Assembly: GCF_036206005.1 (NCBI RefSeq)
Contig: NZ_CP108143.1
Span: 6,353,501-6,417,500, forward strand
DNA: 64,000 nt
Direction: 5' to 3'
Source: Streptomyces sp. NBC_00178
GTDB lineage: Bacteria > Actinomycetota > Actinomycetes > Streptomycetales > Streptomycetaceae
In this document: positions 39,984 through 54,360 of the stretch, piece by piece
How the letters are laid out: each line of letters begins with the position of its first letter
Position numbering within the stretch: position 1 is the stretch's first letter
The notes under the pieces: generated by a model
What the model saw: only the letters and a program-made list of their open reading frames with translations
Databases searched by the model: none
Told to the model about the DNA's origin: nothing
Translations under genes and position numbers: made by a program

Positions 39984-40925
39984 TCAGTGGCAGAGCCGCG
40001 ACTCGTGCTCCGCGTGCCCGCTGGGCTCCAGCTGGAAGGTGCAGTGCTCGACGTCGAAGTGATGTCCGAGGCATCCCTGAAGGTCGTGCAGCACCTTCTC
40101 GTGCCCTATCGAGTCGAGCATCTCCTGGTGCACCACGACGTGGGCGGAGAGGACGGGCATCCCCGAGGTGATCGTCCAGGCGTGCAGGTCGTGGACGTCC
40201 AGGACGCCGGGCAGCGCCGTGATGTGGGCCCGCACCTTCTCCATGTCGACCCCCTTGGGAGCCGACTCCAGCAGCACGTCGAGAGTCTCCCGGAGGAGTC
40301 TGACCGTACGGGGGACGATCATCAGCCCGATCAGGAGCGAGGCGATGGGGTCGGCGGCCTGCCAGCCGGTGGCGACGATGATGCCCGCCGCCACGAGCAC
40401 CGTGACGGAGCCGAGGGTGTCGGCGACGACTTCCAGATAGGCGCCGCGCACGTTGAGGCTGTCCCGCTGCCCGCGCATCAGCAGGGACAGCGAGACCACG
40501 TTCGCGAGCAGACCAACGGCGGCGAACGCGATGGCCAGACCGCCCCTCGTGTCCGCCGGCGTCATGAAGCGTTGGACGGCTTCGAAGACCAGGTAGCCGC
40601 CGACACCCAGCAGGAGCAGACAGTTCGCGAGGGCGGCGAGGATCTCGGCGCGTGCGTAGCCGAAGGTGCGGTTGGGGCTCGCGGGCTTGTTGGCGAAGTG
40701 GATGGCCAGGAGGGCCATGCCGAGGCCCAGGGCGTCGGTCGCCATGTGGGCCGCGTCCGCGATCAGCGCCAGCGAGTCCGCGAGCAGCCCGCCGACGATC
40801 TCCATGACCATGACGCCGAGCGTGATGCCCAGGGCCACCCGGAGCCGGCCCCGGTACGCGGCGGCGGCCGTCCCCGTGGGGGGCGGTCCGCCGTGCGCGT
40901 GCCCGTGATCGTGGCCTGCCCCCAT
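39984..40925 (-). CDS. Cation diffusion facilitator (zinc/cadmium exporter type)
   Basis: 313 residues. A His-rich N-terminus (HDHGHAHGG) precedes six membrane helices. Helix II has the metal site SLALIADAAHMATDALGLGMALLA (HxxxD) and helix V the partner site GAYLEVVADTLGSVTVLVAA (DxxxD-like HxxxD variant). The cytosolic C-terminal domain (about 215-313) has HDLHAWTITSGMPVLSAHVVV and a terminal His/Cys-rich tail CLGHHFDVEHCTFQLEPSGHAEHESRLCH-type segment. It exports Zn2+ or similar by proton antiport. GGAGG seven nt before ATG 40925 sets the start. It stands alone. Confidence 0.95.
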   Translation of the reverse strand: MGAGHDHGHAHGGPPPTGTAAAAYRGRLRVALGITLGVMVMEIVGGLLADSLALIADAAHMATDALGLGMALLAIHFANKPASPNRTFGYARAEILAALANCLLLLGVGGYLVFEAVQRFMTPADTRGGLAIAFAAVGLLANVVSLSLLMRGQRDSLNVRGAYLEVVADTLGSVTVLVAAGIIVATGWQAADPIASLLIGLMIVPRTVRLLRETLDVLLESAPKGVDMEKVRAHITALPGVLDVHDLHAWTITSGMPVLSAHVVVHQEMLDSIGHEKVLHDLQGCLGHHFDVEHCTFQLEPSGHAEHESRLCH

Positions 40926-41045
40926 GAGACCGCCTCCGTAGACCCGTCGTGTCCTTCGGACAGTCGAACGCCTCTCGCCCGATGCCGCCAGTGAACTACG
41001 GGGGGCGGGTACGGGGCAACACGGCACTGAACACCGTTGTCATGT

Positions 41046-41098: not shown

Positions 41099-42094
41099 CT
41101 ACGTCGCGGCGCGTGCCCCGGGGTGCAGGAGGCACCAGCCCTCCCAGGCCGACTCCACCATCTCGCGCATCCCGCGCCGGGCCGTCCAGCCCAGTTCCTC
41201 CGTCATCCGGGCGGCCGACGCGACGGCCATGGCGGCGTCCCCCGGCCGGCGTGCCTCGATCACGGGCGTCGCGGGCAGACCGGTGACCTCCAGCACCAGC
41301 TCGGCCAGCCGGCGCACCGAGACGCCCTCGCCCCGCCCGATGTTCACGGTGAGGTCCCCGCCGGTCCCGGCCGCCGCGTCCCGGTCGAGCCGTCCGGCGA
41401 CGGCGAGATGCGCGTCCGCCAGGTCGGCGACGTGGATGTAGTCGCGGACGCAGGTGCCGTCCGGCGTCGGGTAGTCGTCACCGAAGATGCGGGGCGCCTC
41501 GCCCCTCGTCAGCCGGTCGAAGAACATGGGGACGACGTTGAAGACGCCGGTGTCCGCCAGCTCCGGCTCGCCCGCGCCGGCCACGTTGAAGTACCGCAGG
41601 CAGGCCGTCGAGATGCCGTGGGCCCGGCCCGTGGCCCGGACGAGCCACTCCCCGGCGAGTTTGGTCTCGCCGTACGGGTTGATCGGCGCGCAGGGGGTCT
41701 CCTCGGTGATGAGGTCGGTGTCCGGGACGCCGTACACCGCTGCCGACGACGAGAAGAGGAACCGCCCCACACCCGCGGCGACCACGGCCTCCAGGAGCAC
41801 CGACAGCCCCGTGACGTTCTCCCGGTAGTACATCAGCGGCTTCTCGACGGATTCGCCGACCTGCTTCTTCGCCGCGAGGTGCACCACACCGGTCACCGCG
41901 TGCTCGGCCAGCACCCGGTCGACCACGGCGCGGTCGGACGCCGAACCGCGCACCAGGGTGATGTCCGCGGGCAGCCGGACGTCGATCCCGGTCGAGATGT
42001 CGTCGAGGACGACGACCCGCTCCCCGGCCTCCTTCATGGCTTTCGCCACATGTGCCCCGATGTATCCGGCTCCGCCTGTGATCAACCACGTCAT
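41099..42094 (-). CDS. galE: UDP-glucose 4-epimerase
   Basis: 331 residues, extended short-chain dehydrogenase. NAD-binding GGAGYIGAHVAKAM (about 7-20), VVHLAAKKQVGESVEKPL (about 70-87), catalytic SSSAAVYG and Y-X3-K in NPYGETKLAGE (about 140-150), and RYFNVAGA. It interconverts UDP-glucose and UDP-galactose, giving sugar donors for glycans. It is divergent from the CDP-alcohol/export operon and may supply it, although it is transcribed separately. ATG 42094 has a -10 hexamer (42102-42107) and no ribosome binding site. Confidence 0.94.
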   Translation of the reverse strand: MTWLITGGAGYIGAHVAKAMKEAGERVVVLDDISTGIDVRLPADITLVRGSASDRAVVDRVLAEHAVTGVVHLAAKKQVGESVEKPLMYYRENVTGLSVLLEAVVAAGVGRFLFSSSAAVYGVPDTDLITEETPCAPINPYGETKLAGEWLVRATGRAHGISTACLRYFNVAGAGEPELADTGVFNVVPMFFDRLTRGEAPRIFGDDYPTPDGTCVRDYIHVADLADAHLAVAGRLDRDAAAGTGGDLTVNIGRGEGVSVRRLAELVLEVTGLPATPVIEARRPGDAAMAVASAARMTEELGWTARRGMREMVESAWEGWCLLHPGARAAT

Positions 42095-42107: not shown

Positions 42108-42318
42108 GGCGCTGTCCGGACGCGGTTTGTGGGGCGAGGTGTTGATCGACGATGATGATCGGAAACGGCTCCGCATGATGGCCGGATCGCCCGAACGGAC
42201 CACAAACGGCCGGTGAACTCGGCCTTCCGTTCATCCGATAGCCTCAGCCGACGTGCCGCCGGCCCACCTCGGGGCCGCACTGTCGCGCGCCGTCCCCAGT
42301 GCCAAGGAGTGAGTTCGT

Positions 42319-44151
42319 CTGTCGACCGCCATCCTCACCGGTGCGCCGGTACCCGGGTCGTCGCTCGAGGACGATCTGAGGTCACTCGGCTTCGAGGTGA
42401 CTGCCGCCGCCGACGCCTCCGAGGCCGCCGAGCTGCTCGCCGCAGTCCCCGCCAACAGACGCGTCGCGCTCGTGGACCCGCGCTTCGTCGGCCACGTCCA
42501 CGCCCTCAGGCTCGGACTCACCGACCCCCGGTTCCCCGTCGCCGCGATCCCCGGAGCACTCACCGCACGGCCCGAGGCACGCGCCGCGGCACTGCGGGCC
42601 CTGCACCGGACCGTGACGCCCGTCGGAGTGGGCAGCCCCGCCCTGCCCGACGGTGCCGCGACCCCCGCCGAGGACCCCACGGTCCCCGGCCGCCTGGCCG
42701 CCGAGCTGGCCGCCGAGGGCACCGAGGTGAAGCGCCCCGAACTGGGCTCGCTCACCGCCGCGGTGCCCACCGGCCCCGAGGACCGCGGCGCCGCGCGGGC
42801 CGCGGTGGACGCGGTCGACGACGAGGCGGTACGGCTGCGCAGCGCGGTGAAGGCCCACGACGGCTTCTTCACCACCTACTTCATCAGCCCCTACTCGCGC
42901 TACATCGCCCGCTGGTGCGCCCGCCGGGGCCTCACCCCGAACCAGGTCACCACCGCTTCGCTCATCACCGCGCTCATCGCGGCCGGCAGCGCGGCGACCG
43001 GAACCCGGGGCGGTTACGTCGCGGCCGGGGTGCTCCTGCTCCTCTCCTTCGTCCTGGACTGCACGGACGGGCAGCTCGCCCGGTACTCCCTGCAGTACTC
43101 GACGATGGGGGCGTGGCTCGACGCGACCTTCGACCGGGCCAAGGAGTACGCCTACTACGCGGGCCTCGCCCTGGGGGCCGCCCGCGGCGGCGACGACGTG
43201 TGGGTGCTGGCGCTCGGCGCGATGGTGCTCCAGGCGTGCCGCCACGTCGTCGACTTCTCGTTCAACGAGGCCAACCACGACGCCGTGTCCAACACCAGCC
43301 CGACCGCCGCGCTCTCCGACAAGCTGGACAGCGTCGGCTGGACGGTCTGGCTGCGCCGGATGATAGTGCTGCCCATCGGCGAACGATGGGCCATGATCGC
43401 CGTGCTGACCGCCGTGACCACGCCTCGCATCGTGTTCTACGCCCTGCTGATCGGCTGTGCGCTGGCCGCCTGCTACACCACGGCGGGCCGGCTCCTGCGT
43501 TCGCTGACCCGCAAGGCGCAGCGCACCGACCGCGCGGCCGGGGCGCTGGCCGACCTGGCCGACTCGGGGCCGCTCGCGCAGGGCGTCGCCGCCGTGCTCC
43601 GCCGCCCGGGCGGCGGCTTCACCGCCCCGCTGCTGGCGTTCGCCGGAGCCCTGGCCGTGGTCGCCGCAGCCCTTTTCGCCCCCTACGGCGGACTGCTGAC
43701 CGTAGGTGCCGCAGTGGTCTACGCGATCCTCTCCGGCCTCGCGGTCTCCCGGCCGCTCAAGGGCGCGCTCGACTGGCTCGTGCCCCCGGTCTTCCGGGCC
43801 GCCGAGTACTGCACCGTTCTCGTGCTGGCCGCCCGCAGTGACGTGCCGCACGCCGTTCCCGCGGCCTTCGGCCTGGTTTCGGCGGTCGCCTACCATCACT
43901 ACGACACGGTCTACCGCATCCGGGGTGGCACCGGCGCACCGCCCCGGTGGCTGGTGCGCACCATCGGCGGGCACGAAGGCCGGACCCTGGTCGTGGCCGT
44001 GCTCGCCGTCGTACTGACCAGCGGTTCAGGTTTCACCACGGCGCTCACCGCGGTCGCGGCCGCCGTGGCCCTGGTGGTGCTCGTGGAGTCCATCCGCTTC
44101 TGGGTGTCCTCCTCGGCGCCCGCCGTACACGACGAAGGAGAACTCGCATGA
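42319..44151 (+). CDS. Large CDP-alcohol phosphatidyltransferase family membrane protein, apparent CTG start
   Basis: 610 residues if translation begins at CTG 42319. AAGGAG lies 9 nt before this CTG and an in-frame TGA (42310-42312) just upstream excludes any earlier start; the next standard start, GTG 42397, would remove 26 residues and has no binding site. Residues 1-190 are soluble (alpha/beta, STAILTGAPVPGSSLEDDLRSLGFEV). The catalytic motif D247-X2-D250-G251-X2-A254-R255-X8-G264-X3-D268-X3-D272 is complete. Further membrane helices and a second membrane part (about 430-590) follow. It should transfer a phospho-alcohol from a CDP-alcohol. It overlaps the next gene by ATGA. Confidence 0.88.
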   Translation: MSTAILTGAPVPGSSLEDDLRSLGFEVTAAADASEAAELLAAVPANRRVALVDPRFVGHVHALRLGLTDPRFPVAAIPGALTARPEARAAALRALHRTVTPVGVGSPALPDGAATPAEDPTVPGRLAAELAAEGTEVKRPELGSLTAAVPTGPEDRGAARAAVDAVDDEAVRLRSAVKAHDGFFTTYFISPYSRYIARWCARRGLTPNQVTTASLITALIAAGSAATGTRGGYVAAGVLLLLSFVLDCTDGQLARYSLQYSTMGAWLDATFDRAKEYAYYAGLALGAARGGDDVWVLALGAMVLQACRHVVDFSFNEANHDAVSNTSPTAALSDKLDSVGWTVWLRRMIVLPIGERWAMIAVLTAVTTPRIVFYALLIGCALAACYTTAGRLLRSLTRKAQRTDRAAGALADLADSGPLAQGVAAVLRRPGGGFTAPLLAFAGALAVVAAALFAPYGGLLTVGAAVVYAILSGLAVSRPLKGALDWLVPPVFRAAEYCTVLVLAARSDVPHAVPAAFGLVSAVAYHHYDTVYRIRGGTGAPPRWLVRTIGGHEGRTLVVAVLAVVLTSGSGFTTALTAVAAAVALVVLVESIRFWVSSSAPAVHDEGELA

Positions 44152-44885
44152 TCGGCCTCGTACTGGCTGCCGGCGCCGGACGCCGTCTGCGTCCGTACAC
44201 GGACACGCTGCCGAAGGCCCTGGTGCCCGTGGACGGCGAGAAGACGGTCCTCGACCTCACGCTGGCCAACTTCGCCGAGGTCGGACTGACCGAGGTCGCG
44301 ATCGTGGTCGGCTACCGCAAGGAGGCGGTCTACGCCCGCAAGGCCGAGTTCGAGGCCACGTACGGCGTGAAGCTGACGCTGATCGACAACGACAAGGCCG
44401 AGGAGTGGAACAACGCCTACTCCCTGTGGTGCGCCCGTGAGGTCCTGAAGCAGGGCGTCATCCTGGCCAACGGCGACACCGTGCACCCCGTCTCCGTCGA
44501 GAAGACCCTCCTGGAGGCCCGCGGCGAGGGCCGGAGGATCATCCTCGCGCTCGACACGGTGAAGAACCTCGCCGACGAGGAGATGAAGGTCATCACCGAC
44601 GGCGAGAAGGGCGTGCGCCGCATCACCAAGCTGATGGACCCGGCCACCGCGACCGGCGAGTACATCGGCGTGACGCTCATCGAGCCCGAGGCCGCCGAGG
44701 AGCTCGCCGACGCGCTGAAGGCGACCTTCGAGCGCGACCCCGACCTGTACTACGAGGACGGCTACCAGGAGCTCGTGAACCGCGGCTTCACGGTCGACGT
44801 CGCCCCCATCGGCGAGGTGACGTGGGTGGAGATCGACAACCACGACGACCTGGCCAGGGGCAGGGAGATCGCGTGCCGGTACTGA
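44148..44885 (+). CDS. NTP transferase (sugar/alcohol-phosphate nucleotidyltransferase)
   Basis: 245 residues. The nucleotidyltransferase signature MIGLVLAAGAGRRLRPYTDTLPKALVPV opens the protein; VVGYRKEAVY, ILANGDTVHPV (metal-binding Asp about 105) and GEVTWVEIDNHDDLARG close it. It is closest in pattern to LicC-type phosphocholine and inositol-1-phosphate cytidylyltransferases, which work with CDP-alcohol phosphatidyltransferases, rather than to hexose-1-phosphate enzymes. It is start-overlapped with the preceding phosphatidyltransferase gene and overlaps the following dehydrogenase gene by 13 nt, so it very likely makes the CDP-alcohol used by this operon. Substrate is inferred. Confidence 0.9.
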   Translation: MIGLVLAAGAGRRLRPYTDTLPKALVPVDGEKTVLDLTLANFAEVGLTEVAIVVGYRKEAVYARKAEFEATYGVKLTLIDNDKAEEWNNAYSLWCAREVLKQGVILANGDTVHPVSVEKTLLEARGEGRRIILALDTVKNLADEEMKVITDGEKGVRRITKLMDPATATGEYIGVTLIEPEAAEELADALKATFERDPDLYYEDGYQELVNRGFTVDVAPIGEVTWVEIDNHDDLARGREIACRY

Positions 44886-45934
44886 CCCGCCTCATCCCGT
44901 CCCCCGTCGTCGTCGACATCCGGCGCGGCGCCATGGACGACCTGGCCGGTCTCCTCGCCGACCAGCGGATCTCCGCGTCGGGCAAGCTCGCCATCGCCAT
45001 CAGCGAGGGTTCAGGGCGCGCCCTGCGCGAGAGGCTCGCCCCGGTGCTGCCCGGCGCCGACTGGTACCCCGTCACCGACGGCACCATCGACTCCGCCGTG
45101 CGGCTCGCCGACGGCATCAAGGGCAACCGTTACGACGCGCTGGTGGGCCTCGGCGGCGGAAAGATCATCGACGTGGCGAAGTACGCCGCGGCGCGCGTGG
45201 GCATGCCCATGGTCGCGGTCGCGACGAACCTCTCCCACGACGGCCTCTGCTCCCCGGTGGCCACCCTGGACAACGACAACGGACGGGGCTCCTACGGCGT
45301 CCCGACGCCGATCGCCGTCGTCATCGACCTCGACGTGATCCGCGAGGCGCCCGAACGCTTCGTGCGCTCCGGCATCGGCGACGCGGTCTCCAACATCTCC
45401 TGCGTCGCCGACTGGGAGCTCGCCCACGAGGTGCAGGGCGAGGAGATCGACGGTCTCGCCGCGGCCATGGCCCGGCAGGCCGGCGAGGCCGTGCTCCGCC
45501 ACCCCGGCGGGGTCGGCGACGACGCCTTCCTCAAGGTGCTCGCGGAGGGCCTCGTCCTGACCGGCATCTCGATGTCGGTCGCCGGCGACTCCCGGCCCGC
45601 GTCGGGCGGCTGCCACGAGATCAACCACGCCTTCGACCTGCTGTACCCGAAGCGGGCCGCCAGCCACGGCGAGCAGGTCGGCCTCGGCGCCTGCTTCGCG
45701 ATGCACCTGCGCGGTGCCCGCGAGGAGTCGCGGCACATGGCGTCCGTCCTGCGCCGCCACGGGCTGCCCGTGCTGCCCGAGGAGATCGGTTTCACCGTCG
45801 ACGAGTTCGTGCGGGCCGTCGAGTACGCGCCGCAGACGCGTCCGGGCCGCTTCACGATCCTGGAACACCTCAACCTGTCCACCGACCAGATCAGGGACGC
45901 GTACGCCGACTATGCAAAAGCCATCCATAGCTGA
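44873..45934 (+). CDS. Iron-containing ADH-family protein, sn-glycerol-1-phosphate dehydrogenase-like
   Basis: 353 residues from GTG 44873 (GGGAG upstream). NAD-binding GLGGGKIIDVAKYAA (about 92-106) and the segment ATNLSHDGLCSPVATL (about 116-131) resemble the (T)ASHDGIASP text of archaeal and AraM-type glycerol-1-phosphate dehydrogenases. Metal ligands are present: Asp in SGIGDAVSN (about 164), His in GGCHEINHAFD (about 246) and His in ASHGEQVGLG (about 264). It would reduce dihydroxyacetone phosphate, or a related ketose phosphate, to a polyol phosphate. It sits between two CDP-alcohol genes. Alternative: a different polyol dehydrogenase of the Fe-ADH_2 group. Confidence 0.87.
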   Translation: MPVLTRLIPSPVVVDIRRGAMDDLAGLLADQRISASGKLAIAISEGSGRALRERLAPVLPGADWYPVTDGTIDSAVRLADGIKGNRYDALVGLGGGKIIDVAKYAAARVGMPMVAVATNLSHDGLCSPVATLDNDNGRGSYGVPTPIAVVIDLDVIREAPERFVRSGIGDAVSNISCVADWELAHEVQGEEIDGLAAAMARQAGEAVLRHPGGVGDDAFLKVLAEGLVLTGISMSVAGDSRPASGGCHEINHAFDLLYPKRAASHGEQVGLGACFAMHLRGAREESRHMASVLRRHGLPVLPEEIGFTVDEFVRAVEYAPQTRPGRFTILEHLNLSTDQIRDAYADYAKAIHS

Positions 45935-46691
45935 ACTCCGCCCCGTCGTTCACCCCCCGGGCGTGAAGGACCGGCGCAGTGGCGAGCACTGGGCTGGTCG
46001 GCTCTACATGCGCGAGGTCTCGCTGCGCATCACCCGGCGGCTGGTGGTCACCAGGATCACACCGAACCAGCTGACCTACGTGATGACCGTCGCCGGCGTG
46101 CTCGCGGCGCCCGCCCTGCTGCTCCCCGGCATCCCCGGGGCACTGCTCGGCGTGGTCGCGGTCCAGCTCTACCTGCTGTTCGACTGCGTCGACGGCGAGG
46201 TGGCCCGCTGGAAGAAGCAGTACTCGCTGGGCGGTGTCTACCTGGACCGGGTGGCCGCGTACCTGTGCGACGCCGCGGTGCTGGTCGGCTTCGGTCTGCG
46301 TGCCGCCGACCTGTGGGGTCCGGGGCGCGTCGACTGGCTGTGGGCCTTCCTGGGCACCCTCGCCGCGCTCGGCGCGATCCTGATCAAGGCCGAGACCGAC
46401 CTCGTCGGTGTCGCCCGCCACCAGGGCGGGCTCCCGCCCGTCAAGGAGGCGGCGTCCGAGCCCCGCTCCTCCGGCATGGCGTTCGCCCGCCGGGCCGCCG
46501 GCGCGCTCAAGTTCCACCGGCTGATCCTCGGCATCGAGGCGTCGTTCGTCATCCTGGTCGCGGCCGTCCTCGACACCGTCAGGGACGACTTCTTCTTCAG
46601 CCGTCTCGCGGTCGCCGTCCTGGCGGGCATCGCCCTGCTCCAGACCGTCCTGCACCTGGTGTCCATCCTGGCGTCCAGCAGGCTGAAGTGA
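45912..46691 (+). CDS. Second CDP-alcohol phosphatidyltransferase-like membrane protein, variant motif
   Basis: 259 residues, about six membrane helices. The motif is D91-X2-D94-G95-X2-A98-R99-X8-G108-X3-D112-X3-A116: the fourth Asp, the proposed catalytic base of the family, is Ala. NQLTYVMTVAGVL (helix 1) and the rest of the fold are intact. Either the subfamily uses another base, or the protein binds but does not catalyse. ATG 45912 overlaps the dehydrogenase gene by 23 nt, and the gene ends in GTGA overlap with the glycosyltransferase gene. Confidence 0.88.
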   Translation: MQKPSIAELRPVVHPPGVKDRRSGEHWAGRLYMREVSLRITRRLVVTRITPNQLTYVMTVAGVLAAPALLLPGIPGALLGVVAVQLYLLFDCVDGEVARWKKQYSLGGVYLDRVAAYLCDAAVLVGFGLRAADLWGPGRVDWLWAFLGTLAALGAILIKAETDLVGVARHQGGLPPVKEAASEPRSSGMAFARRAAGALKFHRLILGIEASFVILVAAVLDTVRDDFFFSRLAVAVLAGIALLQTVLHLVSILASSRLK

Positions 46692-47572
46692 GCTCTCCCA
46701 TGAAACTCGGCGCGGTGATCATCACCATGGGCAACCGCCCCGAGGAACTGCGTGCCCTCCTCGATTCGGTCGCCAAGCAGGACGGTGACCGGATCGAGGT
46801 GGTCGTCGTCGGGAACGGCGCCCCCGTCCCCGACGTGCCCGCGGGCGTGCGCACCGTCGAACTGCCCGAGAACCTGGGCATCCCCGGCGGCCGCAACGTC
46901 GGCATCGAGGCCTTCGGGCCGTCCGGGGCCGACGTCGACGCGCTGCTCTTCCTCGACGACGACGGCCTGCTGCCGAACACGGACACCGCCGAGCTCTGCC
47001 GGCAGGCGTTCGAGGCGGACCCGAAGCTCGGCGTGGTCACCTTCCGCATCGCGGACCCGGACACCGGCGTCACCCAGCGTCGGCACGTGCCGAGGCTGCG
47101 GGCGTCGGACCCCATGCGCTCGTCCCGGGTCACGACCTTCCTGGGAGGCGCGAACGCCGTGCGCAGCCAGGTGATCGCGGAGGCGGGCCCGCTGCCCGGC
47201 GAGTTCTTCTACGCCCACGAGGAGACCGACCTCGCCTGGCGTGCCCTGGACGCGGGCTGGATGATCGAGTACCGCGCGGACATGGTCCTGAACCACCCCA
47301 CCACGGCGCCGTCGCGGCACGCGGTCTACCACCGCATGGTGGCCCGCAACCGGGTGTGGCTGGCCCGCCGCAACCTGCCCGCGCCGCTCGTCCCCGTCTA
47401 CACCGGGGTCTGGCTGCTGCTCACCCTTGTGCGCAAGCCCTCACTGCCCGCTCTGCGTGCATGGTTCGGTGGTTTCCGGGAAGGGTGGACGACGCCCTGC
47501 GGACCCCGCCGGCCCATGAAGTGGCGTACGGTGTGGCGGCTGACGAGACTGGGCCGCCCACCGGTGATCTGA
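46688..47572 (+). CDS. Family 2 glycosyltransferase
   Basis: 294 residues, GT-A fold. The N-terminus KLGAVIITMGNRPEELRALLDSVAKQ, the DXD-like LLFLDDDGLLP (about 82-92), FLGGANAVRS and the acceptor-side HEETDLAWRALDAGW (about 177-191) are the GT2 hallmarks. A hydrophobic segment near 240-255 (VPVYTGVWLLLTLV) suggests membrane association. GTG 46688 overlaps the preceding stop; ATG 46700 is the alternative. It would add sugar to the operon's polyol-phosphate product before export. Confidence 0.92.
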   Translation: MSSPMKLGAVIITMGNRPEELRALLDSVAKQDGDRIEVVVVGNGAPVPDVPAGVRTVELPENLGIPGGRNVGIEAFGPSGADVDALLFLDDDGLLPNTDTAELCRQAFEADPKLGVVTFRIADPDTGVTQRRHVPRLRASDPMRSSRVTTFLGGANAVRSQVIAEAGPLPGEFFYAHEETDLAWRALDAGWMIEYRADMVLNHPTTAPSRHAVYHRMVARNRVWLARRNLPAPLVPVYTGVWLLLTLVRKPSLPALRAWFGGFREGWTTPCGPRRPMKWRTVWRLTRLGRPPVI

Positions 47573-47674
47573 GAGGCTCTTCCTCTGAGAACATGAGCCG
47601 TATTCATTCGTACGGGGACCCTGTCCGCCTCGGCCGCGCCTGGCTGCGCATTGTGAAGACGAGAGTTCTTAACT

Positions 47675-48604
47675 GTGAGTGACACGACCCATGACGGAGG
47701 GATCGCACTGAGCACCCCACCGTCCGCCGACGCGGGACTCAGTCCGTCCCAGTTGGCCGAGAAGTACGGCCTGACGGTGAGCGGCGCCCGCCCCGGGCTG
47801 TTCGCGTACGTACGGCAGCTCTGGGGCCGCCGGCATTTCATCCTGGCCTTCTCGCGAGCCAAGCTGACGGCGCAGTACAGCCAGGCGAAGCTCGGCCAGC
47901 TGTGGCAGGTGGCCACGCCGCTGCTGAACGCGCTGGTCTACTTCCTGATCTTCGGGCTCATCCTCGGAACGTCGAGGGGGATGCCGCAGGAGGTGTTCAT
48001 CCCGTTCCTGGTGACGGGTGTCTTCGTCTTCACCTTCACCCAGAGTTCGGTGATGGCGGGGGTGCGCTCGATCGCGGGCAACATCGGTCTCGTCCGGGCG
48101 CTGCACTTCCCCCGGGCCTCGCTGCCCGTCTCGTTCTCGCTGCAGCAGCTGCAGCAGCTGCTGTACTCGATGATCGTGCTGGTCTCCGTGGCCGTGGCGT
48201 TCGGCAGCTATCCCAGCCTCTCCTGGCTGCTGGTCGTCCCCGCACTGGCCCTGCAGTTCCTGTTCAACACCGGCCTGGCGATGATCATGGCCAGGCTGGG
48301 CAGCAAGACCCCCGACCTCGCCCAGCTGATGCCGTTCGTCATGCGCACCTGGATGTACGCCTCGGGCGTCATGTTCTCGATCCCGGTGCTGCTCGCGGAC
48401 AAGCCGCAGTGGATCGCGAACGTGCTCCAGTACAACCCGGCGGCCATCTACATGGACCTGGTCCGCTTCGCGATGATCGACGGATACGGCGCGGACAACC
48501 TTCCGCAGCACATCTGGATAGTCGGTCTCGCCTGGGCGGTGCTGGTGGGCGTCGCGGGCTTCGTGTACTTCTGGAAGGCAGAGGAGCGGTACGGCCGTGG
48601 CTGA
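47675..48604 (+). CDS. ABC-2 type transporter permease (TagG/Wzm-like)
   Basis: 309 residues. A cytosolic N-terminus of about 65 residues precedes six membrane helices (LLNALVYFLIFGLILG, VFIPFLVTGVFVFTFTQSS, LLYSMIVLVSVAVAFGS, LSWLLVVPALALQFLF, MRTWMYASGVMFSIPVLL, IVGLAWAVLVGVAGFVYFW). It is the membrane half of a glycan exporter, of the type that moves teichoic acids or lipid-linked O-polysaccharides. GTG 47675. A 102-nt AT-richer gap separates it from the glycosyltransferase and may hold an internal promoter. It overlaps the ATPase gene by 8 nt. Confidence 0.93.
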   Translation: MSDTTHDGGIALSTPPSADAGLSPSQLAEKYGLTVSGARPGLFAYVRQLWGRRHFILAFSRAKLTAQYSQAKLGQLWQVATPLLNALVYFLIFGLILGTSRGMPQEVFIPFLVTGVFVFTFTQSSVMAGVRSIAGNIGLVRALHFPRASLPVSFSLQQLQQLLYSMIVLVSVAVAFGSYPSLSWLLVVPALALQFLFNTGLAMIMARLGSKTPDLAQLMPFVMRTWMYASGVMFSIPVLLADKPQWIANVLQYNPAAIYMDLVRFAMIDGYGADNLPQHIWIVGLAWAVLVGVAGFVYFWKAEERYGRG

Positions 48605-49382
48605 GGAATCGCCCCAGGGGCACATCCCGACCGTGATCGCGGACGACGTGCACATCGTCTACCGGGTCAACGGCGCGAGCGGAGGGAAGGGCAGCGCCAC
48701 CGCCGCGCTGAGCCGCATGATGCGCCGCGGCAAGGGGGAGCCGCGCGGTGTGCGCAAGGTCCACGCGGTGCGCGGGGTGTCCTTCACCGCCTACCGCGGC
48801 CAGGCCATCGGGCTCATCGGCACCAACGGCTCGGGCAAGTCCACGCTGCTGCGCGCCATCGCCGGCCTGCTCCCGACCGAGCACGGCAAGGTCTACACGG
48901 ACGGCCAGCCGTCGCTGCTCGGTGTCAACGCGGCGCTGATGAGCGACCTCACCGGTGAGCGCAACGTCGTCCTCGGCGGTCTCGCGATGGGCATGAGCCG
49001 GGAGGAGATCCGCAGCCGGTACCAGGACATCGTGGACTTCTCCGGGATCAACGAGAAGGGCGACTTCATCACGCTGCCGATGAGGACGTACTCCTCCGGC
49101 ATGGCGGCGCGGCTGCGCTTCTCGATCGCGGCGGCCAAGAACCACGACGTCCTCATGATCGACGAGGCGCTGGCCACCGGTGACCGCAAGTTCCGGGTGC
49201 GCTCCGAGGAGCGGATCCGCGAGCTGCGCAAGGAGGCGGGCACCGTCTTCCTGGTCAGTCACAACAACGGGACCATCCGGGACACCTGTGACCGTGTGCT
49301 GTGGCTGGAGAAGGGCGAGCTGCTGATGGACGGCGCGACCGAAGAGGTCCTCAAGGCCTACGAGCGGGAGACCGGCAAGTAG
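48597..49382 (+). CDS. ABC transporter ATP-binding protein (TagH/Wzt-like)
   Basis: 261 residues. Walker A GLIGTNGSGKSTLLR (about 75-89), the signature MRTYSSGMAARLRFSIAAA (about 160-178; TYSSGM instead of LSGGQ is typical of polysaccharide exporters), Walker B VLMIDEALATGD and the switch VSHNNGTIRD. No C-terminal carbohydrate-binding domain follows, so substrate end-recognition as in Wzt of E. coli O9a is absent. Its partner is the permease encoded just upstream. A strong hairpin after the stop closes the operon. Confidence 0.94.
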   Translation: MAEESPQGHIPTVIADDVHIVYRVNGASGGKGSATAALSRMMRRGKGEPRGVRKVHAVRGVSFTAYRGQAIGLIGTNGSGKSTLLRAIAGLLPTEHGKVYTDGQPSLLGVNAALMSDLTGERNVVLGGLAMGMSREEIRSRYQDIVDFSGINEKGDFITLPMRTYSSGMAARLRFSIAAAKNHDVLMIDEALATGDRKFRVRSEERIRELRKEAGTVFLVSHNNGTIRDTCDRVLWLEKGELLMDGATEEVLKAYERETGK

Positions 49383-49393
49383 TCGTCGCGTCC

Positions 49394-49431
49394 GCGTGGC
49401 CCCCGCCGGAACGCTCCGGCGGGGGCCACGC
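49394..49431 (+). terminator. Strong terminator between the export operon and the hopanoid cluster
   Basis: A perfect 17-bp inverted repeat (GCGTGGCCCCCGCCGGA, 49394-49410, and its complement 49415-49431) with an ACGC loop, 11 nt after the stop codon. Confidence 0.85.
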
Positions 49432-49734: not shown

Positions 49735-49806
49735 ATGACGGCAACGATGGAAAATCTCCAGCTCCGACGGGGTTTCGCCGTCCCCGCGTCGGGTGGTACG
49801 CAGTGA
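49735..49806 (+). CDS. Possible 23-residue ORF coupled to hpnC
   Basis: ATG 49735 is preceded by CGGGAG at 5 nt and encodes 23 residues (MTATMENLQLRRGFAVPASG then GTQ). Its TGA (49804-49806) overlaps the GTG of hpnC (49803-49805) in a GTGA junction, the same arrangement as the real gene junctions of this operon. It could couple hpnC translation to its own. No homologue was recognised. Confidence 0.45.
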   Translation: MTATMENLQLRRGFAVPASGGTQ

Positions 49807-50723
49807 CCGGTACCCAGGAGGCGCGCGCCGACGCCGCCACGACCGGAACGCTCGCCAAGGCCGCGGACGAGAACTTCCCCGTGGCCCCCTTCTTCCTGCC
49901 CCGCGCCTGGCGGGACGACCTCATGGCCGTGTACGGATTCGCCCGCCTCGTCGACGACATCGGGGACGGCGACCTGCCGCCCGGCGGAGCCGACGCGCGC
50001 CTGCTCGGCCTGCAGTCCGGGCAGCAGGCGGACCGGCCGGCGATGCTGGACGCGCTCGAAGCCGACCTGAACCGCGTCTTCGCGAGCGTCGGCGACGGCC
50101 CCCGCCACCCCCTGATGCGCGCCCTGCGCCCCACGGTGCGGCGCTGCGCGCTCACCCCCGAACCCTTCCTCGGCCTCGTCGAAGCCAACCGGCAGGACCA
50201 GAAGGTCCGCCGCTACGGGACGTACGGCGAACTGCTCGCCTACTGCGAGCTCTCCGCGAACCCGGTCGGGCGGCTCGTCCTGCAGATCACCGGCACCGCG
50301 AGCCCCGAACGCATCCGCCGCTCCGACGCCGTCTGCACCGCACTGCAGATCGCCGAGCACCTCCAGGACGTCGCCGAGGACCTCGGCCGCGACCGCATCT
50401 ACCTGCCCGCCGAGGACATGGCCCGCTTCCACGTCGGTGAGTCCGAACTCGCCGCCCCCTCCGCGGGTGCGGCGGTGCGCTCCCTCGTCGCCTTCGAGGC
50501 GGAGCGCGCCGGTCACCTGCTGGAGGAGGGCATCCCCCTCGTGGGCAGTGTCCACGGCAGGCTCCGGCTGCTGCTCGCCGGATTCGTCGGCGGGGGACGC
50601 GCCGCGCTCGGCGCCGTCTCGGCCGCCGGTTTCGACGTACTGCCCGGACCACCCAAGCCCACCGCGCCGAGGTTGCTGCGCGAGGTGGGAGCCGTCCTGC
50701 GAAGAGCGCACAGAGAGGGGTGA
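49803..50723 (+). CDS. hpnC: Squalene synthase-like HpnC (hydroxysqualene synthase)
   Basis: 306 residues, trans-isoprenyl-diphosphate synthase head-to-head family. The first Asp-rich motif is RLVDDIGDGD (about 38-47) and the second EHLQDVAEDLGRDRIYLPAEDMARF (about 182-206). In the three-step route HpnC converts presqualene diphosphate to hydroxysqualene. It is the first gene of the operon with hpnD and hpnE. GTG 49803 overlaps the stop of a 23-residue ORF; no separate strong ribosome binding site is present, which favours coupling. Confidence 0.95.
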   Translation: MTGTQEARADAATTGTLAKAADENFPVAPFFLPRAWRDDLMAVYGFARLVDDIGDGDLPPGGADARLLGLQSGQQADRPAMLDALEADLNRVFASVGDGPRHPLMRALRPTVRRCALTPEPFLGLVEANRQDQKVRRYGTYGELLAYCELSANPVGRLVLQITGTASPERIRRSDAVCTALQIAEHLQDVAEDLGRDRIYLPAEDMARFHVGESELAAPSAGAAVRSLVAFEAERAGHLLEEGIPLVGSVHGRLRLLLAGFVGGGRAALGAVSAAGFDVLPGPPKPTAPRLLREVGAVLRRAHREG

Positions 50724-51673
50724 GCCGGACCATGGAGGGACAGACGACGTACATGTCGGCGCCGGTACAGGCCGCATACAGCTACTGCGAGGCCGTCACC
50801 GGACAGCAGGCCCGTAACTTCGCGTACGGCATCAGACTCCTGCCGTACGAGAAGCGGCAGGCCATGTCGGCGCTGTACGCCTTCTCCCGTCGGGTCGACG
50901 ACATCGGCGACGGCGAGCTGGATCCGGAGACCAAGCGCGTCCGGCTGGAAGGCACCCGGGAACTGCTCGACCGGATCCGCGACAAGGCGGTCGAGGAGGA
51001 CGACACCGACCCCGTCGCGGTCGCGCTCGCCGACGCCGCGCGGCGCTTCCCGCTGCCGCTCGACGGCCTCGACGAGCTCATCGACGGCGTGCTGATGGAC
51101 GTGCGCGGCGCGACCTACGAGACCTGGGACGACCTGAAGACGTACTGCCGGTGTGTCGCGGGCGCCATCGGCCGCCTCAGCCTCGGCGTGTTCGGTACCG
51201 AGGAGGGCGCACCGGGCGCCGAGCGTGCGGCCGAGTACGCCGACACCCTCGGCCTCGCGCTCCAGCTCACCAACATCCTGCGCGACGTGCGCGAGGACGC
51301 GGGGAACGGGCGCACGTACCTGCCCGCCGACGACCTGGCGAAGTTCGGCTGCTCCGCCGGATTCCAGCGGGCCACCCCGCCCCCCGGATCCGACTTCGCC
51401 GGACTGGTCCACTTCGAGGTCCGGCGCGCCCGGGCGCTCTTCGCCGAGGGCTACCGGCTGCTGCCGATGCTCGACCGGCGCAGCGGCGCCTGCGTGGCGG
51501 CGATGGCCGGCATCTACCGCCGCCTCCTCGACCGGATCGAACGCGACCCGGAGGCCGTCCTGCGCGGCAGGGTCTCGCTCCCCGGCCACGAGAAGGCCTA
51601 CGTCGCCGTGCGCGGCCTGTCGGGCCTCGACGCGCGTTACATCTCGCGCCGTACGACCAGGGGGCGCGCCTGA
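50720..51673 (+). CDS. hpnD: Presqualene diphosphate synthase HpnD
   Basis: 317 residues from GTG 50720, which overlaps the hpnC stop (GTGA); ATG 50732 is an alternative. Asp-rich motifs RRVDDIGDGELD (about 56-67) and NILRDVREDAGNGRTYLPADDLAKFG (about 184-209) are intact. YAFSRRVDD and TYETWDDLKTYCRCVAGAIGRL identify HpnD, which joins two farnesyl diphosphates to presqualene diphosphate. Its TGA overlaps the ATG of a 32-residue ORF that bridges to hpnE. Confidence 0.95.
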   Translation: MSRTMEGQTTYMSAPVQAAYSYCEAVTGQQARNFAYGIRLLPYEKRQAMSALYAFSRRVDDIGDGELDPETKRVRLEGTRELLDRIRDKAVEEDDTDPVAVALADAARRFPLPLDGLDELIDGVLMDVRGATYETWDDLKTYCRCVAGAIGRLSLGVFGTEEGAPGAERAAEYADTLGLALQLTNILRDVREDAGNGRTYLPADDLAKFGCSAGFQRATPPPGSDFAGLVHFEVRRARALFAEGYRLLPMLDRRSGACVAAMAGIYRRLLDRIERDPEAVLRGRVSLPGHEKAYVAVRGLSGLDARYISRRTTRGRA

Positions 51674-51771
51674 TGGCACGTCCCGCCCCATATGCCTGCG
51701 CCGCGCACGCAACCCCGCAGGGTTCCGGCGCGTCCCTGACTGCGACGACACGCCGAAGGGGGCAGCCATGA
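51673..51771 (+). CDS. 32-residue ORF bridging hpnD and hpnE
   Basis: ATG 51673 overlaps the hpnD stop (TGATG) and the TGA at 51769-51771 overlaps the hpnE ATG (ATGA), so the ORF exactly fills the hpnD-hpnE gap. The product is basic and Ala/Thr-rich; its GASLTATTRRRG part resembles the SLTATA text of the very short Streptomyces DUF6380 proteins, as I remember that family. It may serve only to carry ribosomes to hpnE. Confidence 0.5.
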   Translation: MARPAPYACAAHATPQGSGASLTATTRRRGQP

Positions 51772-53156
51772 ACGACCGGAGCGCACGCGCCTCCCGCGCG
51801 GTCGTCGTCGGCGGAGGCCTCGCGGGGGTCACCGCCGCGCTGCGTCTCGCCGACGCCGGCGTGGACGTGACCCTGCTCGAAGGCCGCCCCCGGCTCGGCG
51901 GTCTCGCCTTCTCCTTCCGGCGCGGCGACCTCTCCGTCGACAACGGCCAGCACGTCTACCTCCGCTGCTGCACCGCCTACCGCTGGTTCCTGGACCGCAT
52001 CGAGGGATCCCACCTCGCCCCGCTCCAGGACCGCCTCGACGTCCCCGTGCTCGACGTCGGCCGGACCGCCGGGCCGCGGCTCGGACGGCTGCGCCGCACC
52101 GGGCTGCCCGTGCCGCTGCACCTGGCCGGCGGGCTCGCCGCCTACCCGCACCTCTCGGTCGCGGAGAAGGCGGGCGTCGCCCGTGCGGCCCTCGCGCTGG
52201 GCCGGCTCGACCCCGCCGATCCGGCGCTCGACGGCATCGACTTCGCCACCTGGCTCCGCCGCCACGGCCAGTCGGCGCGTGCCATCGAAGCGCTCTGGGA
52301 CCTGGTCGGCGTCGCCACGCTCAACGCCACCGCCCCTCAGGCATCCATGGCCCTGGCCGCGATGGTCTTCAAGACCGGACTGCTCTCCGACCCGGGCGCC
52401 GCCGACATCGGCTGGGCCGCCGTGCCGCTCGGCGATCTCCACGACACCCTCGCCCGCAAGGCACTCGAATCCGCGGGCGTGCGCATCCACGTACGCACCA
52501 GGGCCGGATCGCTGTCCCGCACCGAGGACGGCCGCTGGGCCGTCGCGACGGACGGCGAGCGCTTCGAGGCGGACACCGTCGTGCTCGCCGTGCCGCAGGG
52601 CGAGACCCACCGGCTGCTGCCCGACGGTGCGCTGGACGACCCCGGCAGGCTGCTCGACCTCGAGGACGCGCCGATCCTCAACGTGCACGTCGTCTACGAC
52701 CGCAAGGTGCTGCGGAGACCTTTCTTCGCCGCACTCGGCTCACCCGTGCAGTGGGTGTTCGACCGCACCGAGTCCTCCGGCCTCCAGGGCGCGGGCCAGT
52801 ACATCGCGGTGTCCCAGTCCGCCGCGGGGGGCGAGATCGACCTGCCCGTCGCCGAGCTGCGCAGGCGCTACGTACCCGAACTGGAGCGGCTCCTGCCGGC
52901 CGCGCGCGGGGCGGGCATCCGCGACTTCTTCGTCACCAGGGAGCGCACGGCGACCTTCGCGCCCGCTCCCGGGGTGGGCCGTCTGCGGCCCGGCACGAAA
53001 ACCCGTGTCGCTGGTCTGCAGTTGGCGGGAGCATGGACCGCGACCGGCTGGCCCGCGACGATGGAGGGCGCCGTCCGCAGCGGTTTCAGCGCCGCGGACG
53101 CCGCGCTCCAGGCCCTCGGCCGGCCCCACGAACATCCGCTGCAGGAGGCGGCATGA
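51768..53156 (+). CDS. hpnE: Hydroxysqualene dehydroxylase HpnE
   Basis: 462 residues, FAD-dependent amine-oxidase-like fold. The dinucleotide motif AVVVGGGLAGVTAALRLADAGVDVTLLEGRPRLGG covers about 11-45, GDLSVDNGQHVYLRCCTAYRWFL follows, and the C-terminal FAD contact is AGLQLAGAWTATGWPATMEGAVRSG (about 417-441). It reduces hydroxysqualene to squalene, completing the HpnCDE route. GAAGGGGG lies 8 nt before ATG 51768. It overlaps the polyprenyl synthase gene by ATGA. Confidence 0.95.
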   Translation: MNDRSARASRAVVVGGGLAGVTAALRLADAGVDVTLLEGRPRLGGLAFSFRRGDLSVDNGQHVYLRCCTAYRWFLDRIEGSHLAPLQDRLDVPVLDVGRTAGPRLGRLRRTGLPVPLHLAGGLAAYPHLSVAEKAGVARAALALGRLDPADPALDGIDFATWLRRHGQSARAIEALWDLVGVATLNATAPQASMALAAMVFKTGLLSDPGAADIGWAAVPLGDLHDTLARKALESAGVRIHVRTRAGSLSRTEDGRWAVATDGERFEADTVVLAVPQGETHRLLPDGALDDPGRLLDLEDAPILNVHVVYDRKVLRRPFFAALGSPVQWVFDRTESSGLQGAGQYIAVSQSAAGGEIDLPVAELRRRYVPELERLLPAARGAGIRDFFVTRERTATFAPAPGVGRLRPGTKTRVAGLQLAGAWTATGWPATMEGAVRSGFSAADAALQALGRPHEHPLQEAA

Positions 53157-54256
53157 GCAGTACCACCGGAACAAGAGGAGAGTCTGTGACCCCGGCGAAT
53201 CCGGCTTTCGACACCGTGGCGGACACCACGGACGTCACCGCGCTTCTGGAGCGCGGAAGGGCCCTGTCAGCGCCGGTGCTGCGAGCTGCCGTGGACCGGC
53301 TGGCGCCGCCCATGGACACCGTCGCGGCCTACCACTTCGGCTGGATCGACGCCCAGGGCCGGCCCGCCGACGGTGACGGCGGCAAGGCCGTGCGCCCCGC
53401 GCTGGCACTGCTGTCCGCGGAGGCCGCGGGCGCCCCGGCGGAAGCCGGCATCCCCGGCGCCGTGGCCGTCGAACTCGTGCACAACTTCTCGCTGCTGCAC
53501 GACGACCTGATGGACGGTGACGAGCAGCGCCGCCACCGCGACACCGTGTGGAAGGTGCACGGCCCCGCCCAGGCGATCCTCGTCGGCGACGCACTCTTCG
53601 CGCTGGCCAACGAGGTCCTGCTGGAGCTCGGCACCGTGGAGGCCGGCCGCGCCACCCGCAGGCTGACCACCGCCAGCCGCAAGCTGATCGACGGTCAGGC
53701 CCAGGACATCTCCTACGAGCACCGCGAGCGGGTCACCGTCGAGGAGTGCCTGGAGATGGAGGGCAACAAGACGGGTGCCCTGCTCGCCTGCGCCGTCTCG
53801 ATCGGCGCCGTGCTCGGCGGCGCCGACGACCGCACCGCCGACACCCTGGAGGCGTACGGCTACCACCTCGGCCTCGCCTTCCAGGCGGTCGACGACCTGC
53901 TCGGGATCTGGGGCGACCCGGAGTCCACGGGCAAGCAGACGTGGAGCGACCTGCGCCAGCGCAAGAAGTCCCTGCCCGTCGTGGCCGCGCTGGCCGCGGG
54001 CGGGCCGGCGTCCGAGCGGCTGGGCGAACTCCTCGCCGCGGACGCCAAGAGCACCGATTTCGACAGCTTCTCCGAAGAGGAGTTCGCCGCGCGCGCGGCG
54101 CTCATCGAGGAGGCGGGCGGCCGCGAGTGGACCGCCGAGGAAGCGCGCCGCCAGCACGCCGTGGCCATCGAGGCGCTGCACGGTGTCGACATGCCGGAAC
54201 GGGTGCGGGCACAGCTCACCGCGCTCGCCGACTTCGTTGTCGTACGAAAGAGATGA
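53153..54256 (+). CDS. Polyprenyl diphosphate synthase (farnesyl/geranylgeranyl type)
   Basis: 367 residues. The first Asp-rich motif is LLHDDLMDGDEQRRHRDTVW (about 113-132) and the second AFQAVDDLLGIWGDP (about 243-257), with GKAVRPAL and GQAQDISYE between. The residues before the first motif (HNFSLL) suggest a short product such as farnesyl diphosphate, matching the need of HpnD. GGAGG before ATG 53153 supports the start, which overlaps the hpnE stop; the internal GTG 53187 is less likely. A 104-nt gap with a weak hairpin precedes shc. Confidence 0.95.
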   Translation: MSSTTGTRGESVTPANPAFDTVADTTDVTALLERGRALSAPVLRAAVDRLAPPMDTVAAYHFGWIDAQGRPADGDGGKAVRPALALLSAEAAGAPAEAGIPGAVAVELVHNFSLLHDDLMDGDEQRRHRDTVWKVHGPAQAILVGDALFALANEVLLELGTVEAGRATRRLTTASRKLIDGQAQDISYEHRERVTVEECLEMEGNKTGALLACAVSIGAVLGGADDRTADTLEAYGYHLGLAFQAVDDLLGIWGDPESTGKQTWSDLRQRKKSLPVVAALAAGGPASERLGELLAADAKSTDFDSFSEEEFAARAALIEEAGGREWTAEEARRQHAVAIEALHGVDMPERVRAQLTALADFVVVRKR

Positions 54257-54360
54257 TCACCATCCAGATATGACTCGCAGTCGCCGGCGGGCGCCCGATA
54301 CGGGCGTCCGCCGACGGAGACCCCAGCACAGCAGAGGACCAACTGCACGAAGGGGAAGCC

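Follow-up and report, generated by a model that had tools for sequence, protein, structure and literature searches.

A conserved Streptomyces operon as a candidate source of CDP-glycerol for envelope polymers

Several described systems make or use cytidine diphosphate (CDP)-activated alcohols for envelope components or for solutes. In pneumococcus, the reductase and cytidylyltransferase of the Gtp1-3 pathway yield CDP-2-glycerol, from which glycerol-2-phosphate is delivered to the capsule. In the archaeon Archaeoglobus fulgidus, glycerophosphoinositol is a soluble solute, and the pathway leading to it reportedly prefers glycerol-1-phosphate. In Bacillus subtilis, TagD uses sn-glycerol-3-phosphate, and the glycerol-1-phosphate units of Bacillus lipoteichoic acid (LTA) derive from phosphatidylglycerol (PMC7086022). 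Actinobacteria are said to have no clear LtaS orthologues, and a shared TagF-type route has been favoured for them (PMC3196553); AraM-based lipid synthesis is taken as restricted to Bacillales (PMC8262930). Here, we report a computational analysis of an operon of seven genes, labelled g1 to g7 in 5' to 3' order, at positions 42319-49382 of a window of Streptomyces sp. NBC_00178 DNA, the window being the whole stretch of 64,000 nucleotides that was analysed (contig NZ_CP108143.1, positions 6,353,501 to 6,417,500).

In the pathway that we propose, g3 would reduce dihydroxyacetone phosphate (DHAP) to glycerol phosphate, probably sn-glycerol-1-phosphate (G1P), and g2 would convert glycerol phosphate and cytidine triphosphate (CTP) to CDP-glycerol; in many actinomycetes, the pair would be a non-homologous replacement of TagD. 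The CDP-glycerol would supply the membrane enzyme g1, which would transfer glycerophosphate to an acceptor carried on a lipid or a glycan, g5 would glycosylate this acceptor, and the TagGH-like pair g6-g7 would export the product. The same donor would also feed the TagF-type teichoic-acid polymerases of the genome. As a whole, this reading, namely CDP-glycerol supply by g2-g3 in place of TagD, for both g1 and TagF and under the control of PhoP, is advanced tentatively, with a probability that we place close to, and short of, even. What the analysis shows is the genes with their homology and conservation, the PHO-box-like site, the co-occurrence with TagF, the exclusion with strong TagD and the aspartate missing from g4; we infer every substrate, the chirality, which acceptor and polymer are involved, and how PhoP acts on the operon. 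The wider generalization, that streptomycetes, along with several further TagD-less families of actinomycetes, build glycerol teichoic acids from G1P through a dedicated, phosphate-controlled route from DHAP via G1P to CDP-1-glycerol, is possible and, in our estimate, rather unlikely.

Genes of the operon and their predicted products

The seven genes lie on the forward strand, with overlaps of 4 nt (g1/g2), 13 nt (g2/g3), 23 nt (g3/g4) and 4 nt (g4/g5), a gap of 102 nt between g5 and g6, and an overlap of 8 nt between g6 and g7. A sequence-only reading of the window had described seven same-strand genes with overlaps, a 17-bp repeat and a divergent galE; all of these were confirmed in place, and its domain assignments for the seven genes were borne out by Pfam and NCBIfam profile searches. 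Three features go beyond that reading: a PHO-box-like site, a hopanoid cluster downstream of the operon, and the lack of the fourth signature aspartate in g4.

The operon is highly conserved among close relatives. In the best 80 of 571 related loci, nearly all from Streptomyces (the exceptions being L044, L060 and L108) and hence near relatives, g1-g7 appear in the same order in 75, the remainder being cut or short of one gene. Of 61 Streptomycetaceae genomes, 59 carry the g3 gene; a draw of 394 genomes from the class included 100 with g3 at E <= 1e-30. Among 36 hand-chosen stretches from beyond the Streptomycetaceae, 9 to 19 kb long, 31 contain g2 and 29 a CDP-alcohol-transferase motif, with g5-, g6- and g7-like genes in 16, 11 and 12, respectively, so that the conserved core consists of g2, g3 and a CDP-alcohol transferase.

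By sequence, g3 (44873-45934, forward strand; Fe-ADH_2, PF13685) belongs to the glycerol-1-phosphate dehydrogenase (G1PDH) type of the EgsA/AraM kind. Its closest solved sequences are 3ce9 (157.7 bits), 4rgq (139.6), 4rfl (139.5), 5fb3 (130.5) and 9h4x (91.3); 3ce9 was deposited as a glycerol dehydrogenase, and other glycerol dehydrogenases score at most 64.2 bits against g3. The match to the G1PDH model NF002022, at 236.9 bits, is below the curated cut-off of 413, and we therefore call the protein G1PDH-like and do not file it as an equivalog. The Asp-His-His metal site and the SHDG and SRPxSG segments are present. Across 12 sequences, residues H248, H265, D123 and R241 do not vary and D170 is shared by 11; D170, H248 and H265 align with the archaeal G1PDH of M. 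jannaschii, and the roles of the conserved residues are those that we presume for this family. Judged from these relatives, the product of g3 would probably be G1P formed from DHAP.

The g2 product (44148-44885, forward strand) is closest, by sequence and by predicted fold, to LicC-type cytidylyltransferases. LicC (1jyk) is the best phmmer match, followed by an inositol-1-phosphate cytidylyltransferase (4jd0); LicC (1jyl/1jyk) is likewise the best Foldseek match of the structural model (predicted local distance difference test, pLDDT, 75.7), with RmlA close behind and only a small margin over hexose-1-phosphate enzymes. A LicC-like segment of the NNxYS type occurs in 38 of 48 g2 homologues, and nine of the ten that lack it have no more than 39% identity.

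The first gene, g1 (42319-44151, forward strand), encodes an AF2299-like protein that combines a CDP-alcohol phosphotransferase domain with DUF5941 (PF01066, 39.7 bits; PF19365, 313.8 bits). We place its start at the CTG at 42319, which is preceded by AAGGAG; the first start in the list of open reading frames is the GTG at 42397. The protein carries the full signature D1xxD2G1xxAR...G2xxxD3xxxD4, including the fourth aspartate. Its N-terminal region has no Pfam match and is probably a degenerate cytidylyltransferase-like domain; a distant homologue (in L155) has PF12804 in its place. The closest sequence in the Protein Data Bank is 4o6m (AF2299), and in a Foldseek search with the g1 model (pLDDT 73.8) the top match was 4o6n (416 columns, E 5.3e-6, TMt 0.53, root-mean-square deviation 9.6). 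The donor pocket of AF2299 accommodates CDP-glycerol (PMC4634129). In one locus (L149:11056-11697, reverse strand), DUF5941 occurs as a free-standing protein of 213 amino acids, which indicates that this partner of the transferase can be separated from it.

The second CDP-alcohol phosphotransferase homologue, g4 (45912-46691, forward strand; PF01066, 33.5 bits), is also nearest to AF2299, and its catalytic aspartate is replaced by alanine. In a tally confined to motifs matching the search pattern, the 97 g4 motifs have either Ala (69) or His (28), and never Asp, at the fourth signature position, whereas all 96 non-g4 CDP-alcohol-transferase motifs of the same loci keep the aspartate. This residue is likely to be the base, and its change from Asp to Asn nearly abolishes the activity of a phosphatidylinositol-phosphate synthase (PMC4634129). 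Accordingly, g4 fails the class I CDP-alcohol phosphotransferase signature and, although homologous by Pfam, is not filed as a catalytic member of the class; the sequence-only reading had listed it as a second CDP-alcohol phosphatidyltransferase, which is not supported in that form. An alignment of 17 sequences shows no variation at the remaining signature positions of g4, so the gene is not in decay. By way of two guesses, it might act on an acceptor that needs no base (a phosphate) or serve as a non-catalytic partner of g1. A transferase without this aspartate adds a puzzle about mechanism.

The remaining genes encode a family 2 glycosyltransferase, g5 (46688-47572, forward strand; PF00535, 43.2 bits), which is conserved in position and starts at the GTG at 46688 or, alternatively, the ATG at 46700, and a pair of ATP-binding cassette (ABC) transporter subunits. 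The TagG/Wzm-type permease g6 (47675-48604, forward strand; PF01061) has its best NCBIfam match to NF050109 at 59.1 bits, short of the cut-off of 380, and the TagH/Wzt-type ATPase g7 (48597-49382, forward strand) matches the TagH model NF010066 at 177.7 bits, short of the cut-off of 320. Next to the PF04464 genes of this genome (in L170) there are a permease 63.5% identical to g6 and an ATPase 75.3% identical to g7. Assignment of g6-g7 as a TagGH-type export pair is thus supported by homology. The succession of steps in the sequence-only reading, from a polyol phosphate through CTP activation, transfer and glycosylation to export, is likewise upheld by homology, except for the part given to g4.

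Distribution of TagF and TagD and alternative products

Genomes from the class were compared for the presence of g3, of the TagF family (PF04464, E <= 1e-10) and of TagD, the enzyme by which CDP-glycerol is usually made (TIGR01518, E <= 1e-12). Among the 394 genomes, PF04464 was detected in 96 of the 100 with g3 and in 64 of the 294 without it, the searches for g3 and for PF04464 having scored the best first-look candidates only, so that some may have been missed; by genus, the figures are 33 of 34 and 28 of 103. Within the Streptomycetaceae, 58 of 61 genomes have PF04464, and both genomes devoid of g3 are among the three without it. Strong TagD matches, defined as those of 109-205 bits by a cut of our own at a gap in the scores, were found in 30 genomes, all of them among the 294 without g3 and none among the 100 with g3; a further 47 genomes have weak TagD-like matches (50-86 bits). 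When only TagF-positive genomes are considered, strong TagD is found in none of the 96 that carry g3 versus 21 of the 64 that do not. Either g3 or strong TagD is present in 117 of 160 TagF-positive genomes versus 13 of 234 TagF-negative ones. Replacement of TagD by g2-g3 would be expected to leave this pattern of co-occurrence with TagF and exclusion of strong TagD; the pair probably does take the place of TagD, perhaps with the sn-1 enantiomer. The glycerol-phosphate idea of the sequence-only reading gains from this distribution, and from AF2299, the solved protein closest to g1 and g4, which uses CDP-glycerol as the donor.

There are also physical associations. In a locus outside the class of the window (L128), a PF04464-like gene lies about 0.1 kb from g2; in two Streptomycetaceae loci (L171 and L172), such a gene is divergent from g1; and two second copies of g3 (L173 and L175) are near TagF genes. 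These last four loci were chosen for their TagF coordinates or as second copies, and therefore illustrate the arrangement without giving its frequency. Second copies of g3 in L173, L175 and L176, accompanied by g2 in L175 and L176, are located, as judged by eye, between rne-like and rplU/obg-like genes. With respect to the enantiomer, the TagF-like polymerase Cps7D accepts pure CDP-1-glycerol (PMC8262930).

Several observations weigh against CDP-glycerol supply by g2-g3 to TagF. The same study found that Cps3D rejects CDP-1-glycerol (PMC8262930). Relatedness among the genomes inflates both the co-occurrence and the exclusion tests; counted by genus, the exclusion of TagD and g3 is at p 0.02, with a single genus in which both occur, each in different genomes. 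Only four of the 394 genomes pass the curated TagD cut-off (165.4 bits), and two of the 96 genomes with both g3 and PF04464 rest on marginal matches (G656 and G663, E about 6e-11). Neither g3 nor strong TagD is found in 43 of the 160 TagF-positive genomes, and weak TagD-like proteins are encoded in 21 of the 96 TagF-positive genomes with g3. Only three of the 36 stretches outside the family contain PF04464-like genes (L128, L154 and L157), the second copy of g3 in L176 is not near TagF, g2 was not found by that in L173, and in one of the 12 aligned g3 homologues D170 is replaced by Glu. In the genome studied here, the five PF04464 genes are at 2.94-2.95 Mb, about 3.4 Mb from the operon. This genome also encodes a weak TagD-like protein (65 bits against the cut-off of 165.4; L166) and a second IspD-like domain (154 bits; C1:2459953-2460642, in a frame of 525 amino acids), a candidate CDP-ribitol enzyme if, as we assume, it has that function. 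Given these TagD-like and IspD-like proteins, certain TagF enzymes may draw on other donors. The weak TagD-like protein lies beside a CDP-alcohol phosphotransferase of 250 amino acids (732-1956 of L166, the C1:5745427 region), and the two are possibly another CDP-alcohol pair.

Ribitol is the main rival to glycerol. As an analogue of TarI-TarJ, g2-g3 would reduce a pentulose phosphate and activate it, giving CDP-ribitol or another CDP-polyol for ribitol-type PF04464 polymerases. The PF04464 family does include ribitol-phosphate transferases, which also tells against a strictly glycerol-based interpretation; g2-type enzymes accept varied phospho-alcohols; and the same data on the distribution of TagF and TagD speak for it. 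However, the relatives nearest to g3 are glycerol-1-phosphate dehydrogenases, those nearest to g1 and g4 are a CDP-glycerol enzyme, and there is the separate candidate for CDP-ribitol synthesis, although second IspD-like domains were detected in just 16 of 61 family genomes. On this evidence, we consider a ribitol product unlikely.

It is also unlikely, in our assessment, that the operon makes only its own glycerophospho-glycolipid, perhaps tied to a developmental stage involving hopanoids, without feeding TagF. Such a product would agree with the location of g1 and g4 within the operon, with the four g3-positive genomes of the class and one family genome (G012) that lack PF04464 and that count against supply to TagF, and with the adjoining hopanoid genes in Streptomycetaceae. 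Nevertheless, hpnC, hpnD, hpnE and shc were found in none of the 36 stretches outside the family, which makes the hopanoid link local to Streptomycetaceae and led us to set aside a function tied to hopanoids; the co-occurrence with TagF, the exclusion of TagD and the proximity of TagF to g3 in several loci also count against such a product.

An ordinary surface-glycan cluster, with an unrelated polyol or sugar dehydrogenase as g3 and a nucleotidyltransferase for hexose 1-phosphates as g2, appears improbable. The families are broad, no operon gene exceeds an NCBIfam cut-off among the matches listed, and RmlA follows LicC closely by fold; against this stand the nearest relatives of g2 and g3 (LicC and G1PDH) and the frequent pairing with a CDP-alcohol phosphotransferase. 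Finally, G1P for archaeal-type ether lipids, as made with AraM and PcrB in Bacillus, would suit the homology of g3 and the report that Streptomyces species hold all three archaeal lipid genes, GGGPS included (PMC6431249), but we rejected it as scarcely credible because PcrB/GGGPS was detected in none of 61 Streptomycetaceae genomes, with positive controls detected, and the pathway needs neither g2 nor g1.

Upstream site and genomic neighbourhood

A PHO-box-like direct repeat, a candidate PhoP site, is located upstream of g1 at 42197-42218 on the reverse strand. We take the consensus to be GTTCACC-n4-GTTCACC, of which the copy in the window matches 10 of 14 positions, which is not significant by itself. 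Across species, 75 regions were scored over the 350 nt that precede g1 (the window and 74 of the 80 loci, 6 of 81 regions having been excluded for an unusable start or upstream sequence); 60 of them reached at least 11/14, versus 3.0% of 1500 Markov shuffles. The half-site is given as GTTCA in a study in which SCO6753 of S. coelicolor is a predicted PhoP target with a PHO box and is altered in a phoP mutant (PMC4173021). In S. coelicolor, zitB is SCO6751 (PMC5472717) and the hopanoid genes are SCO6759-71 (PMC2374992); hence, by position, we infer that g1-g7 correspond to SCO6752-6758, with SCO6753 as the equivalent of g2. The reason for control by PhoP would be that the operon makes a phosphate-containing product.

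Downstream of g7, at 49394-49431, there is an inverted repeat with perfect 17-bp arms and a 4-nt loop, without a T run, which is a probable terminator. It is followed by the hopanoid cluster (49803-56373, forward strand), with hpnC, hpnD, hpnE, a polyprenyl synthase gene and a squalene-hopene cyclase gene (named by eye); hpnC is downstream of the operon in 74 of the 80 loci. On the other side, the divergent galE gene (41099-42094, reverse strand, start set by eye) encodes a protein of the uridine diphosphate (UDP)-glucose 4-epimerase type (PF01370, 192.7 bits) and is upstream of the operon in 54 of 80 loci. A cation diffusion facilitator-like gene (39984-41027, reverse strand), zitB by position, also adjoins the locus; SCO6751 is a Zur-activated zinc exporter (PMC5472717).

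Other contexts were seen in distant loci. In L144 (5455-18432), L154 and L156, g2-g3 are near Wzm/Wzt-like genes (by eye, with Pfam searches of two L144 proteins), together with GlfT2-like and sulfotransferase-like genes in L144 and L156 and UDP-galactopyranose-mutase-like genes in L144 and L154, an arrangement that resembles a mycobacterial-type galactan locus. A role in galactofuranan synthesis is suggested by L144 and L156 (family f7) and L154 (f76); the genome studied here has no Glf, and this role was therefore not generalized. In L131, L132, L134 and L135, from an actinobacterial family outside the class (f9), a type I phosphodiesterase-like gene (PF01663) is near distant g2-g3, mostly along with a sugar-phosphate transferase gene (PF02397; by eye, with a Pfam search of L131 only).

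Novelty and relation to described systems

The sequence-only reading had called the operon undescribed, which holds for its function only. Streptomyces synteny clusters 14531, 14532 and 14538, published in 2026, combine a nucleotidyltransferase, a CDP-alcohol transferase, a family 2 glycosyltransferase, tagG, tagH, araM and crtB (PMC13118837) and are very probably this locus; the passage on these clusters only links them with the biosynthesis of teichoic acid and with secondary metabolism, and the TagD/TagF pattern, the PHO box and the missing aspartate are absent from it. A phylogeny of 2016 already included a Streptomyces G1PDH among its aligned sequences (PMC5059525). The novelty that had been claimed for a bacterial G1P-based polymer has to be narrowed in the same way: G1P in Bacillus LTA is known (PMC7086022), and what would be new is a wall polymer made from G1PDH-derived G1P and activated as CDP-1-glycerol. 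Among the matches listed from the open-licence literature, the relevant passages give no function for the operon and no link between G1PDH and teichoic acid in actinomycetes. Within this literature, the following appear to be new: how TagF and TagD are distributed, a CDP-glycerol supply proposed to start from G1P, a PHO-box-like site found across species, and a transferase that lacks the aspartate.

If the proposal is correct, it would tell where actinomycetes without a clear TagD get their CDP-glycerol, what bacterial G1PDHs do outside Bacillus, and how LTA-like chirality of a glycerol-phosphate polymer could arise without LtaS. Wall-polymer chirality becomes a yes/no question for the sn-3-specific enzyme GlpQ. 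Should the sn-1 assignment hold as well, the polymers would mirror the wall polymer of Bacillus in their chirality and would be made through a non-lipid use of a bacterial G1PDH.

A close parallel is the TagD-TagF system of Bacillus subtilis, in which CDP-glycerol likewise feeds PF04464 polymerases and a TagGH exporter, the exporter of the operon being akin to the one next to the PF04464 genes; the difference is that TagD starts from sn-glycerol-3-phosphate (PMC7086022), whereas here a G1PDH-like and a LicC-like protein occur without strong TagD. Bacillus AraM shares the dehydrogenase type of g3 but works with PcrB, in place of which a cytidylyltransferase and a CDP-alcohol transferase are found here. 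The Gtp1-3 pathway has in common a reductase and a cytidylyltransferase that give a CDP-glycerol; to our knowledge, it includes no CDP-alcohol phosphotransferase. CpgD of Caulobacter also is a cytidylyltransferase, and its CDP-C3 product is the donor for an anionic lipid of the envelope, but in that case the compound is phosphoglycerate, the lipid a sphingolipid and the bacterium Gram-negative (PMC12275187). Archaeoglobus AF2299/IPCT-DIPPS shares the CDP-glycerol donor and the combination of a CDP-alcohol phosphotransferase with a cytidylyltransferase-like domain, to which the Streptomyces operon adds a glycosyltransferase, an ABC exporter, DUF5941 and a transferase without the catalytic aspartate.

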